Source: Prevotella sp. (GTDB lineage Bacteria; Bacteroidota; Bacteroidia; Bacteroidales; Bacteroidaceae). From it: a stretch of 64,000 nt of DNA. The notes under the pieces were generated by a model that saw only the letters and a program-made list of their open reading frames with translations, had not been told where the DNA came from and searched no databases. Below, in pieces: positions 2,970 to 51,386 of this stretch. Position 1 is the first letter of the stretch. Each line of letters begins with the position of its first letter. Location of the stretch: the NCBI GenBank assembly GCA_017410365.1, contig JAFQQY010000007.1, positions 1 to 64,000 on the forward strand. The letters run 5' to 3'. The translations under genes and the position numbers were made by a program.

Positions 2970-4301
2970 ATGAAGAAACTAATGCTGTTTGCGCTGCTTG
3001 CGCTTTCTTGCGTAGGAATGTATGCCGTTAAAGCACCTACATTTCCAGACCGCACGTTTAATATCAAGGACTATTATAATGGCACGGATACCATTTATAC
3101 CGCAGCCATCAACAATGCCATAATTGATTGCTCAAAGCAGGGTGGCGGTAAGGTGCTGATACCAAAGGGCGAATATCTGACTGGTCCGATACATCTCAAG
3201 TCGAATGTTAATCTTCACATGGAAGATGGGGTAGTGCTACGTTTCAGCACAGATCCAAGATTGTATGAACCTATTGTGCTTACTCGCATCGAGGGTGCTG
3301 ATTGTTATAACCTGTCGCCGCTGATATATGCATACGGCCAAGAGAATATAGCGATAACAGGAAAGGCGCGTCTTGACGGACAAGCAACATCAGCCAACTG
3401 GCTTGACCCGCATAACATGTATAATCATCTTCAGCCAGACGGACGCATTGCCCGCGACAAGACCCAACTCGTGGAGATGAACAACAATAAGGTGGATGTA
3501 GAGAAGCGCAGATTCGAAGGCAAATGCGGCATGCGCCCTCAGTTCATCAACCTATACAAATGCAAGAACATTCTGCTCGACGGCTTTGAGATTAACCGCT
3601 CTCCATTTTGGCTCGTACATCCTCTGATGTGCGAAAACGTGACTGTTCGCAATCTTATATTGCGCAGCCATGGCAGCAATAACGACGGTTGCGACCCAGA
3701 GTCATGTACAGATGTGCTGATAGAAGGATGCTATTTTGATACCGGTGACGACTGTATAGCCATTAAGTCAGGCAAGGATAATGACGGCAGACGCTGGAAC
3801 CTGCCAAGCAAAGACATTCTTATTCGCAATTGCATCATGCGCGACGGACATGCCGGCGTGGCTATAGGCAGCGAGATTTCAGGTAGCGTTTACAATGTTA
3901 CGGTGCAGGATTGCTATATGGACAGTCCTAATCTTGACCGTGTGCTTCGCATCAAGTCAAACCCTGCGCGTGGAGGTGAAGTGGCAAACATTCGCGTTAA
4001 GAATATCGAAGTGGGTGAATGTAAGCTGGCCATCGTAGGATTGGAGCTTAAATACTGGTATACAGACAAGGGTCCATACATGCCATCGTTCCATGATATA
4101 TATGTAGAGAACGTAAGAAGCAAGAAGAGCCGCTACATGATTCACGTAGACGGATTAGAGGGAAAGGAGCTGGCTAAGGATATTTATCTGAAAGATTGCA
4201 ACATCAACGGTGTTACAGAAAGTGAAATCAATCATCTCGTTGGCGTTGGAAAAATAGAGTTTGATAATGTTTATGTAAACGGAGTCAAACAGACAAAATA
4301 A
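2970..4301 (+). CDS. Secreted GH28 polygalacturonase-type pectinase
   Basis: Predicted to hydrolyse alpha-1,4-galacturonan or rhamnogalacturonan links in pectin, outside the cytoplasm. A signal peptide covers residues 1-20 and the rest is a right-handed parallel beta-helix. The GH28 active-site motifs appear in order: NNDG (237-240), DD (260-261) in GDDCIAIKSG, His294, and RIK (327-329). The His motif reads GHAG where most family members have GHG; the His is kept, so activity is still expected. The length (443 aa) is normal. It stands alone behind its own promoter, and its stop codon is immediately followed by a palindrome array that probably ends transcription. Exo or endo action cannot be told from sequence. 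Confidence 0.88.
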   Translation: MKKLMLFALLALSCVGMYAVKAPTFPDRTFNIKDYYNGTDTIYTAAINNAIIDCSKQGGGKVLIPKGEYLTGPIHLKSNVNLHMEDGVVLRFSTDPRLYEPIVLTRIEGADCYNLSPLIYAYGQENIAITGKARLDGQATSANWLDPHNMYNHLQPDGRIARDKTQLVEMNNNKVDVEKRRFEGKCGMRPQFINLYKCKNILLDGFEINRSPFWLVHPLMCENVTVRNLILRSHGSNNDGCDPESCTDVLIEGCYFDTGDDCIAIKSGKDNDGRRWNLPSKDILIRNCIMRDGHAGVAIGSEISGSVYNVTVQDCYMDSPNLDRVLRIKSNPARGGEVANIRVKNIEVGECKLAIVGLELKYWYTDKGPYMPSFHDIYVENVRSKKSRYMIHVDGLEGKELAKDIYLKDCNINGVTESEINHLVGVGKIEFDNVYVNGVKQTK

Positions 4302-4388
4302 TAAATGCGCCATTTACGAGTGCTAAATGGCCCATTTAGCTATGCTAAACCTATCGTTTACGGTTGCTAAATGGGCCATTTATTTTTT
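4302..4388. repeat. Four-module palindrome array, 22-bp period (array 1)
   Basis: Four 15-bp modules start at 4302, 4324, 4346 and 4368: TAAATGCGCCATTTA, TAAATGGCCCATTTA, TAAACCTATCGTTTA, TAAATGGGCCATTTA. Each is TAAA-N7-TTTA. They are separated by 7-bp spacers (cgagtgc, gctatgc, cggttgc). Modules 2 and 4, with two flanking bases, are a perfect 17-bp inverted repeat (4324-4340 with 4366-4382). A run of six T follows (4383-4388). The array lies between two converging genes and starts at the base after the GH28 stop, so a two-way transcription terminator is the simplest role. Two further arrays of the same design lie at 19854 and 50463. Confidence 0.9.
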
Positions 4389-4563
4389 AGTACCTGCTGT
4401 TCGCTTTTATGCAATAGACATAAGCGATTATTCCAATGACGATAAGCGCAAAACCAATCATCAAAGAACAGTTGCCGGCGCTTGCGACAAATTGTCTGAA
4501 GGATAGTGTTGACGCCCCCAAAATGATGCATGTCAGTGGTATATATCTAGTTGCTTTTTTCAT
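4387..4563 (-). CDS. Small membrane protein of unknown function (58 aa)
   Basis: The frame runs from ATG (complement of 4561-4563) to TAA (complement of 4387-4389). It encodes MKKATRYIPL, then a hydrophobic segment with Cys, a polar turn (SFRQFVASAGNC), a long second hydrophobic segment (about 34-51) and a basic tail ending NSRY. This gives two likely membrane spans with a short loop. It has a promoter matching consensus (TTTG-N20-TATTTTTG) on its own strand and diverges from the rpsF ribosomal operon. Its stop lies only 4 bases from palindrome array 1. I do not recognise the function. The well-placed promoter and hydrophobic pattern argue that it is a real gene. Confidence 0.7.
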   Translation of the reverse strand: MKKATRYIPLTCIILGASTLSFRQFVASAGNCSLMIGFALIVIGIIAYVYCIKANSRY

Positions 4564-19484: not shown

Positions 19485-19856
19485 ATGAAAGCAATAAACA
19501 CAAAGAATGCGCCTGCAGCTATCGGTCCATATAGCCAGGCAATAGAAGTTAACGGTTTTGTATATACATCAGGCCAGTTGCCAATAGACCCTGCAACGGG
19601 TGAGTTTGCAGGTTGCGACATAAAGTCACAGGCAGAGCAGTCGCTGAAGAATGTAAAGGCTATACTTGAAGAGGCTGGACTGACCATGAAGAATGTTGTG
19701 AAGACCACGGTATTCCTTGCCGACATGGCAGACTTTGCTGCAATGAACGAGGTGTATTCCACTTATTTCTCAGAGCCATATCCTGCACGTTCGGCAGTTG
19801 CTGTAAAGACATTGCCTAAAGGCGCTTTGGTTGAGATAGAATGTGTGGCTGTATAA
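19485..19856 (+). CDS. ridA: RidA family enamine/imine deaminase
   Basis: Hydrolyses reactive enamine or imine intermediates (such as 2-aminoacrylate) made by PLP enzymes. The 123-aa protein has all family marks: NAPAAIGPYSQAI, VYTSGQLPIDPATG, the catalytic-site Arg in PARSAVAV and the closing VEIECVAV. It is a single gene behind its own promoter. Its TAA stop is part of the first module of a palindrome array. Confidence 0.95.
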   Translation: MKAINTKNAPAAIGPYSQAIEVNGFVYTSGQLPIDPATGEFAGCDIKSQAEQSLKNVKAILEEAGLTMKNVVKTTVFLADMADFAAMNEVYSTYFSEPYPARSAVAVKTLPKGALVEIECVAV

Positions 19857-19940
19857 CTGTGCCACTTTCAATGCATAACTGCACCATTTACGAGTCGTAA
19901 GTGGTGCAGTTATGAGTTGTAAACGGCACATTTGTTTTTT
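19854..19940. repeat. Four-module palindrome array, 22-bp period (array 2)
   Basis: Modules at 19854, 19876, 19898 and 19920: TAACTGTGCCACTTT, TAACTGCACCATTTA, TAAGTGGTGCAGTTA, TAAACGGCACATTTG, with 7-bp spacers caatgca, cgagtcg, tgagttg. Modules 2 and 3 are complementary at 14 of 15 positions around the 7-base spacer, and the outer pair is partly complementary, so the whole forms one long imperfect hairpin. TTTTTT follows at 19935-19940. It lies between converging ridA and radA, and the ridA stop codon is the first three bases of module 1. Confidence 0.9.
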
Positions 19941-44519: not shown

Positions 44520-44604
44520 TTATTTAAGATTATTTTTAATGAGTTCGCGTTCCGATTGCTTATGTTTACTCTTGCTTTTATGTTGCTTTGGGTATGATTG
44601 TTTT

Positions 44605-44669
44605 CAGTAAGTGGCGTTCTGACTGACAGTTTGTAGGCCAAAAACTGCCAGTCAGAACGCCACTTACTG
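44605..44669. repeat. Long inverted repeat with three 15-bp modules, 22-bp period
   Basis: Perfect 21-bp arms (44605-44625 and 44649-44669) enclose a further 6-bp pairing after one mismatch. The inside reads as 15-bp blocks at 44608 (TAAGTGGCGTTCTGA), 44630 (TTTGTAGGCCAAAAA) and 44652 (TCAGAACGCCACTTA) with 7-bp spacers ctgacag and ctgccag, the same 15+7 spacing as the arrays at 4302, 19854 and 50463. Unlike those it lies between divergent promoters. The rest of 44437-44881 is AT-rich leader and promoter sequence. Confidence 0.88.
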
Positions 44670-44828
44670 AAATTTATAGTTAATATCTCTATAATCAACG
44701 ACAACATTGCAACTACATCAAACGCATATTTAATAGATTATGAATGCGTATAGTGGATTGGTAAAGTGGCAAATTCAGTGTTAATTGCATTTTTGATGTT
44801 CTTTTTCTTCGCTTTGAATATAATTTGC

Positions 44829-50462: not shown

Positions 50463-50543
50463 AAACAGGGCCATTTAGTAATAGCAAATGGGCAACTTTT
50501 GATGTCTAAACGGCCTATTTAGCCAGTCTAAATGGGCCGTTTA
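50463..50543. repeat. Four-module palindrome array, 22-bp period (array 3)
   Basis: Modules at 50463, 50485, 50507 and 50529: AAACAGGGCCATTTA, CAAATGGGCAACTTT, TAAACGGCCTATTTA, TAAATGGGCCGTTTA, with 7-bp spacers gtaatag, tgatgtc, gccagtc. Modules 3 and 4 are complementary at 14 of 15 positions. The array fills the gap between the converging GHL10 gene (stop at 50453) and the exopolysaccharide locus (last stop at 50550), so it probably ends transcription from both sides. Confidence 0.86.
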
Positions 50544-50549
50544 GATTTG

Positions 50550-51386
50550 TTACCAGTCGAATATCTCTTTGCCGTTCTCAAAGTGGAAGAAGTCGACAAT
50601 CTTTGAGAAACTATCGTCTGTGAACTCTTGGTCCTTGCTTTCAAGGAAACAAAGCGGCACTTCGCCAATGAACGAGGCCCAACGCGAATAGCTGCTGAAT
50701 GGTCCTATAATCATGTCGCAGACAGATAGCGTATAAAGGTCAAGTATAGCACCAGACGGTTCCTTGCCGAAACGTCGGCATTCGCAATCGGTAAATTGTT
50801 CAAGTTCAAAGCTCTCGTTGCTGCTGATGAAGAAACTCACTCGCTTATCCTTATGCAACGCTTTTATGCGGAGCATGAATTGGTGATAGTCGTCAAGGGA
50901 ATAGAAGAAACGCCCGTCGTTCCATGTGGCATAGTCACCTCGGCGTATATGCACTCCTACGACGATATCAGAAGTTTTTCGCATGTCGTTTATCAACTGC
51001 TCAGCCTTGTCGGTAATGTCCTTCTTGGGTCTGTATATGTGTTGCAGTTCACTTTTTGCCTCGGCTATGTAGCGCGTGTCGTTTCTAGTGCTCCATCCCT
51101 TTGTGCACCCGAAGAACTTGAACACCTTGTCCATTCTTTTGCTATGTGTAGCTTTCCATGTCAACCCCTTGTAGTTGTTCCATCCGTTGCCTCTTTCCAG
51201 ATACCATTTATGCCATAGTGGGAAATGGATGAAAGGGCAATTTAGCAGGTTTGGAAAATCTTCTATTGTCCAGTCGTAGAACAATATTACCATGTGCTTG
51301 CGCTTGACCACGCATTCGCTAATAGCAGCAACATAAGTCCACAACCTGTTGCACGTCTGTCCGGGGGCATCACATATTATTTTCAT
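50550..51386 (-). CDS. Glycosyltransferase, probable alpha-1,2-fucosyltransferase-like
   Basis: 278 aa. VGVHIRRGDY (143-152) is the donor-binding motif shared by GT11 alpha-1,2- and alpha-1,6-fucosyltransferases; DMIIGPFSSYSRWASFIG near 225-242 fits their second motif. The N-terminal loop reads GQTCNRLW instead of the usual G-x-G-N-Q. It therefore seems a distant member; fucosyl transfer is likely but not certain. Last gene of the exopolysaccharide locus, 2 bases after the acyltransferase gene. Confidence 0.68.
   Translation of the reverse strand: MKIICDAPGQTCNRLWTYVAAISECVVKRKHMVILFYDWTIEDFPNLLNCPFIHFPLWHKWYLERGNGWNNYKGLTWKATHSKRMDKVFKFFGCTKGWSTRNDTRYIAEAKSELQHIYRPKKDITDKAEQLINDMRKTSDIVVGVHIRRGDYATWNDGRFFYSLDDYHQFMLRIKALHKDKRVSFFISSNESFELEQFTDCECRRFGKEPSGAILDLYTLSVCDMIIGPFSSYSRWASFIGEVPLCFLESKDQEFTDDSFSKIVDFFHFENGKEIFDW

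Follow-up and report, generated by a model that had tools for sequence, protein, structure and literature searches.

The stretch of Prevotella sp. DNA analysed here, 64,000 nucleotides long and referred to below as the window, contains a glycosyl hydrolase family 28 (GH28) gene whose stop codon is followed immediately by a row of four palindromic modules of the form TAAA-N7-TTTA, beginning at 4302, 4324, 4346 and 4368 and separated by 7-bp spacers. This anatomy, proposed in a sequence-only reading by a model, proved exact on re-examination; the perfect 17-bp inverted repeat that the same reading had seen in modules 2 and 4 was also recovered, as a stem of 4324-4340 paired with 4366-4382, together with the T run behind it, six T at 4383-4388. 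The features of this locus and of two sister arrays are as follows.

2970..4301, plus strand: GH28 gene, upstream of the array; ORF with a match to Pfam PF00295 (E 6.4e-31)
4302..4316, no strand assigned: module 1, TAAATGCGCCATTTA, starting at the base next to the stop codon 4299-4301
4324..4338, no strand assigned: module 2, TAAATGGCCCATTTA, best pair 15/15, perfect with module 4
4346..4360, no strand assigned: module 3, TAAACCTATCGTTTA, inner hairpin
4368..4382, no strand assigned: module 4, TAAATGGGCCATTTA, perfect partner of module 2
4383..4388, plus strand: six-T run after module 4, putative terminator tail, overlapping the minus-strand stop codon 4387-4389
4387..4563, minus strand: small hydrophobic ORF of 58 aa, convergent with the array, upstream of rpsF
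19854..19934, no strand assigned: second array, four modules, period 22; a plus-strand gene has its stop codon in the TAA of module 1
50463..50543, no strand assigned: third array, four modules, period 22; between stop codons 50451-50453 (plus) and 50550-50552 (minus)

The array does stand directly after the GH28 gene, as had been claimed, but the claim overlooked the convergent minus-strand ORF at 4387-4563, which has no match in Pfam. Since only 4 bp separate the array end (4382) from the stop codon of this ORF (4387-4389), the array fills a convergent gap between two stop codons, a setting that resembles that of the array at 50463. Two other converging gene ends in the window had been said to carry the same 15+7 plan, and they do, with four modules each at an exact 22 bp: the array at 19854-19934 is flanked by convergent genes for an L-PSP endoribonuclease and an AAA/Lon-domain protein, and the one at 50463-50543 by convergent genes for a GHL10 and a glycosyltransferase-11 protein. 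A stricter palindrome scan of the window missed the second array and returned the last two modules only of the third.

Besides the window, the sample of this genome comprised 60 stretches; those in C7, C4, C11, C23, C26, C29, C31, C38 and C42 include places with earlier array matches, and those in C11, C23, C26, C29, C31, C38 and C42 were placed deliberately at such matches. Many stretches of the relatives G012, G017 and G022 were picked on contigs with pattern hits, and G010 alone is represented by one contiguous 400-kb run. With stretches chosen in this manner array densities are biased, but the distances from module to module should not be. The arrays mostly consist of 3-5 modules.

In 757 kb of this genome, a search with a module consensus for chains scoring at least 9 returned 19 at period 22, one at period 21, and none at any other period from 16 to 33. 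A period scan of 1.16 Mb found 26 arrays at 22, 11 at 21 (part of which may be slipped modules of the same arrays), 2 at 23 and one each at 18 and 26, the four remaining periods being empty. Single modules located with genome-specific weight matrices are 22 bp apart in 43 cases in this genome, 56 in G010, 77 in G017 and 112 in G012, so that the 22-bp spacing is indeed commoner than others; distance 23 occurs once in each of the first three and never in G012, and distance 21 occurs 11 times in this genome and 0 times in each of the others. A detector that uses no species consensus, applied at its strictest setting to the rpsF loci of 80 relatives, gave 12 arrays at 22, in 8 of the 80 loci, one at 23, a second detection of the same array with its register shifted, and none at 18-21 or 24-26; at the loosest setting the counts were 27 at 22, 11 at 21, 8 at 20 and 6 at 23. 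The output of a looser palindrome detector was mostly noise. For all this, 22 bp is not a universal constant: the G022 stretches yielded 42 module pairs with a distance of 21, and distances of 20 and 22 did not occur, so that the step, like the letters, is a genome trait.

The letters themselves differ from genome to genome while the A-rich and T-rich arms and the step stay. The module consensus is TAAATGGNCCATTTA in this genome, AAAAGC-N3-GCTTTT in G012, AAAAGRTNAYCTTTT in G010 and GAAAGATGTGCTTTC in G028, and G017 uses several words; the suggestion of a family of arrays in which spacing is kept while sequence varies is supported. Across 60 genomes of the genus, this one among them, a strict four-module pattern with at most 2 mismatches reaches 5 or more hits at step 22 in 26, at step 21 in 3 and at step 23 in 2; hits are windows, not arrays, and reach hundreds per genome in array-rich species. 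By the same pattern, the step-21 genomes G022 and G040 have, respectively, 75 and 16 hits at 21 against 1 each at 22. The word GCTATGC/GCATAGC is common to arrays of G040 (step 21; G040:C9:31840-31978) and of G012 (step 22). The reversed pattern cannot serve as a clean null, since it shares the 22-bp period and in some genomes exceeds the forward count: TTT-N7-AAA was seen 62 times against 5 in G003, 40 against 0 in G008, 41 against 7 in G026 and 28 against 1 in G046, which are possibly dialects with a different module size. Another variant, in this genome, is an array of TAC...GTA-type palindromes at ~22 bp (L025, 18858-18938), with arms unlike the main consensus.

Beyond the genus, 23 of 151 family genomes match with one mismatch allowed, and clear lattices are visible by eye in eight genomes of other genera (G131, G190, G248, G157, G140, G225, G213 and G202). 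The consensus-free arrays at rpsF loci include those of Xylanibacter caecicola, Segatella maculosa and Leyella lascolaii. In a collection of viral contigs, stretches at step 22 (19) show no enrichment over those at steps 23 (13) and 21 (26); six of the 19 contain G017-type modules. The contigs listed as viral that carry a G017-type array are L245, L247, L248, L249, L254 and L258, and these arrays probably arrive via the bacterial flanks of predicted prophages.

All three window arrays are predicted to form strong hairpins, with fold z on the two strands of -6.0/-5.5, -7.5/-7.1 and -5.3/-3.5. One might therefore see in the arrays a fold-back device, an extended hairpin or a cruciform formed by RNA or by single-stranded DNA, whose equal spacing lets the arms pair about any centre. 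Perfect pairing of module cores exceeds permutation in G010 (6/13 vs 1.9) and G017 (12/21 vs 6.0), which speaks for a folded strand in those two genomes, and 15 of 21 copies in G017 have a module 1 that pairs perfectly with either module 2 or module 3, where permutation gives 9.2; the corresponding values are 9/21 vs 8.7 in G012 and 1/10 vs 1.3 in this genome. However, real arrays fold no better than arrays of re-assorted modules (mean z -0.26, -0.39, 0.04 and 0.22), altered spacer lengths cost just ~1-2.5 kcal/mol, and a simple scan of 21 G017-type copies for covariation gave scattered pairs only, with no run of covarying pairs, so that RNA covariation was rejected for these 186-bp elements (see below). 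As re-assorted arrays fold equally well, folding appears to be a by-product of palindromic modules, not the cause of the step, and we consider the fold-back reading quite improbable. The same comparison rules out termination as the reason for the spacing, in agreement with the sequence-only reading, which had held that a plain terminator leaves the regular period unexplained. A search of seven sources (the window, L036 and array loci of relatives) against Rfam 15 gave only tRNA and rRNA above the gathering score.

The array at 4302 has the anatomy of an intrinsic terminator, a GC-containing 17-bp stem with six T immediately behind it at a gene end, and judging by its letters it probably ends the transcripts of both converging genes. 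Anatomy and folding suggest that a transcript of the GH28 gene would fold modules 2 and 4 into the 17-bp hairpin with six U behind it, and that a transcript of the minus-strand small ORF would have the same hairpin and, after it, another hairpin and a stretch rich in U. A consensus terminator scan listed a smaller minus-strand stem but not the long stem of the plus strand. Two classes of array can be told apart in this genome: in the 7 arrays within 60 bp past a stop codon the best module pair is 13.4/15 and the fold z -1.47, against 10.3/15 (p 3e-4) and +0.38 (p 5e-5) in 18 others, which include edge arrays and one array inside an ORF. Other genomes have a best pair of 14.0 in 9 near-stop arrays against 12.5 in 80 others (p 0.015), a contrast whose loosest ('rel') arrays include likely false ones (L032, L067 14443). 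The contrast is absent in G022 (3 near-stop arrays 13.3, 6 others 13.7), and G017 has no near-stop array with at least three modules. A role as two-way terminator, which had been offered for the whole family, is thus likely for the 4302 copy and the gene-end copies, in view of the stem and the near-stop contrast, but most arrays lie away from gene ends. In our reading, the gene-end copies have been adapted to termination, and the lattice as such would have a role at the level of DNA.

Placement relative to genes was assessed with gene calls from an in-house ORF scorer, not a published caller. Among 104 arrays in four genomes, one overlaps a called ORF and 12 lie at sequence edges. Convergent gaps hold 29 of the 95 arrays with both neighbours known, a set that uses an enlarged sample of this genome, against 17.0 expected from random intergenic placement (p 0.0019), and divergent gaps hold 15 against 19.1 expected. 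Position within 60 bp past a stop codon (16/95 vs 14.9 expected) is without overall enrichment across the four genomes; for this genome alone the count is 7 of 20 against 4.0 (p 0.084). The supposed enrichment of arrays at gene ends is therefore real as regards convergent gaps and fails as regards closeness to stop codons.

One place, upstream of rpsF and adjoining the small ORF, is shared by arrays in L031, L035 and L038: the four modules of L035 and L038 are in register despite many different letters, and L031 has three modules, the alignment gap being equal to one unit. A simple rule, which missed the L035 ORF, recognised the small ORF before rpsF in 20 of 75 sequences, of which 4 have a period-22 lattice behind the ORF, the window being included in both counts.

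Certain arrays are parts of larger dispersed elements. Twelve copies of an element of ~400 bp with a 5-module core can be aligned over the whole length in G012, and in G017 and some contigs of the viral collection the array core lies inside an element with imperfect inverted ends, TGTAAAGATAATTC and GAAAAATATTTACA, 186 bp apart. Terminal inverted repeats and sharp ends are a hallmark of MITEs, and G017 elements have them; BLAST matches in G017 reach ~300 bp, and some conservation and matches pass the right end. Of the occurrences of the motif TGTAAAGATNATTC, 22 of 25 in G017 and 14 of 15 in G012 have an array within 400 bp; the figure is 1 of 4 in this genome, and G010 is without any occurrence. 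All this would suit arrays that are cores of non-autonomous mobile elements, with a step that looks exact since each genome amplified one founder, and no present reader. Several observations speak against such an origin. The right end is recognisable in 20 of 21 G017-type copies and stands at exactly 186 bp in all 20 (164-230 allowed), while ungapped identity over the 21 copies has a mean of 0.79 and a minimum of 0.66; zero length change in 20 copies that are 66-91% identical is unexpected under unconstrained decay. The stand-alone arrays of this genome have a common step and consensus but unlike flanks, and the register kept at the rpsF site argues in the same direction. On balance we regard a purely mobile origin as unlikely. 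By eye, the flanks of G017-type elements show no clear target-site duplication, and relatives are too distant for orthologous empty sites.

In this genome, some arrays sit in mosaic intergenic repeats (L122 13950-14420, L116 10308, L118 13689, L011 17231), which the window arrays do not; the L122 array lies between inverted CATACATCCTACATTTTTG-like ends. Neighbouring module cores are generally no more alike than permuted ones (z -1.3 to 1.8), and so recent tandem duplication is unsupported as the general source of the step, though single arrays (G202, L074) look duplicated. Unit duplication does occur, as is evident from an excess of identical cores in modules 2 and 4 of G012 (z 3.0) and from near-identical tandem units in G202.

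A-rich and T-rich arms ~11 bp apart could also bend DNA, and bending might itself be the function. Curvature predicted from wedge parameters and compared with shuffles gives a mean z of -4.4 in G017, -3.1 in G012 and a weak -1.1 in G010, but the arrays of this genome show none (mean z +0.5). Curvature as a universal property is thereby ruled out, and we think it highly improbable that bending explains the arrays.

The account that we prefer, with a confidence just short of even, is that the arrays are a dispersed intergenic repeat with a rigid DNA lattice, probably read by a dimeric protein, and that the gene-end copies act as two-way terminators. The array at 4302 would be a stand-alone copy of this repeat, whose core comprises 4-5 self-complementary modules of ~15 bp with A-rich and T-rich arms at a genome-specific step, 22 bp here. 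What keeps the step would be a DNA-binding dimer that contacts successive modules in register, at intervals of two helical turns; candidates are a mobiliser and a protein that organises the chromosome. The observations establish that the step is exact, that the letters are specific to each genome, that many species have such arrays and that those of this genome fall into two classes. Dimer binding, which the sequence-only reading had already considered, is compatible with all that was observed, and palindromes spaced by two turns would be read most simply by a dimer. Still further goes the idea of a family-wide chromosomal code, in which the many intergenic lattices of array-rich species have as their in-register ligand a dimeric protein that evolves fast, and word and step (21/22 bp) change together in each species. 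We doubt that this extension is correct; if it were, bacteria would have a counterpart of the coevolving proteins of centromeres or hotspots.

Several known systems resemble the arrays in part. Iterons of plasmid origins, about 17-22 bp in length, present several protein sites two helical turns apart, as the modules may do; the arrays differ in being dispersed on the chromosome and in having palindromic modules. A bidirectional intrinsic terminator consists of a hairpin and a T run between convergent genes, which is common to the 4302 array, whereas the 22-bp lattice and the occurrence far from gene ends are not part of that design. REP/BIME elements are many-copy intergenic palindromic units with short linkers and genome-specific sequence, some of them terminators. 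The arrays are likewise intergenic palindromes with short linkers, many copies, genome-specific letters and some terminator-like members, but have in addition a rigid 21/22-bp lattice. The Y1 transposase (PF01797, TnpA-REP) has no match in this genome or in the array-rich G012, G017, G039, G047 and G058, and 1-2 matches in each of G006, G010 and G053; its absence rules out REP/RAYT identity for this genome. For REP elements with RAYT transposases (PMC3733652, PMC6006769), a GTAG or CGTC tag at the palindrome foot is reported (PMC3733652).

A literature search, which left most subscription papers and all preprints outside its range, found no description of such arrays in Prevotella. The nearest description found (PMC4596501; see also PMC5771137) is that of BrickBuilt of Porphyromonas gingivalis, a MITE with a minisatellite whose 23-nt unit is present 1 to 22.8 times, indels reaching 6%. 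BrickBuilt is similar in having short-period units in larger dispersed intergenic elements, in the same bacterial order, and predicted stem-loops with no Rfam match (PMC4596501); it differs in its 23-bp period, as opposed to 22 in four genomes and 21 in G022. Its 23-nt consensus, AGAYCATARTATCCTCTCRTRTG, which also differs, has 0 matches in the window at up to 3 mismatches and 0 exact matches in 317 loci.

Sequence is the usual criterion by which intergenic palindromic repeats are defined; in these arrays the letters vary between species and the geometry is fixed to the base pair, and a family of this kind would escape repeat finders, Rfam-type searches and other methods that rely on shared sequence. 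The host family comprises abundant gut bacteria, and two questions become testable in it: what reads the spacing, and how gene-end copies become terminators. Apart from the 22-bp lattice, the window also contains, at 44602-44672 in a long intergenic stretch, an inverted repeat with 31-nt arms that are 97% complementary and a 9-nt loop.
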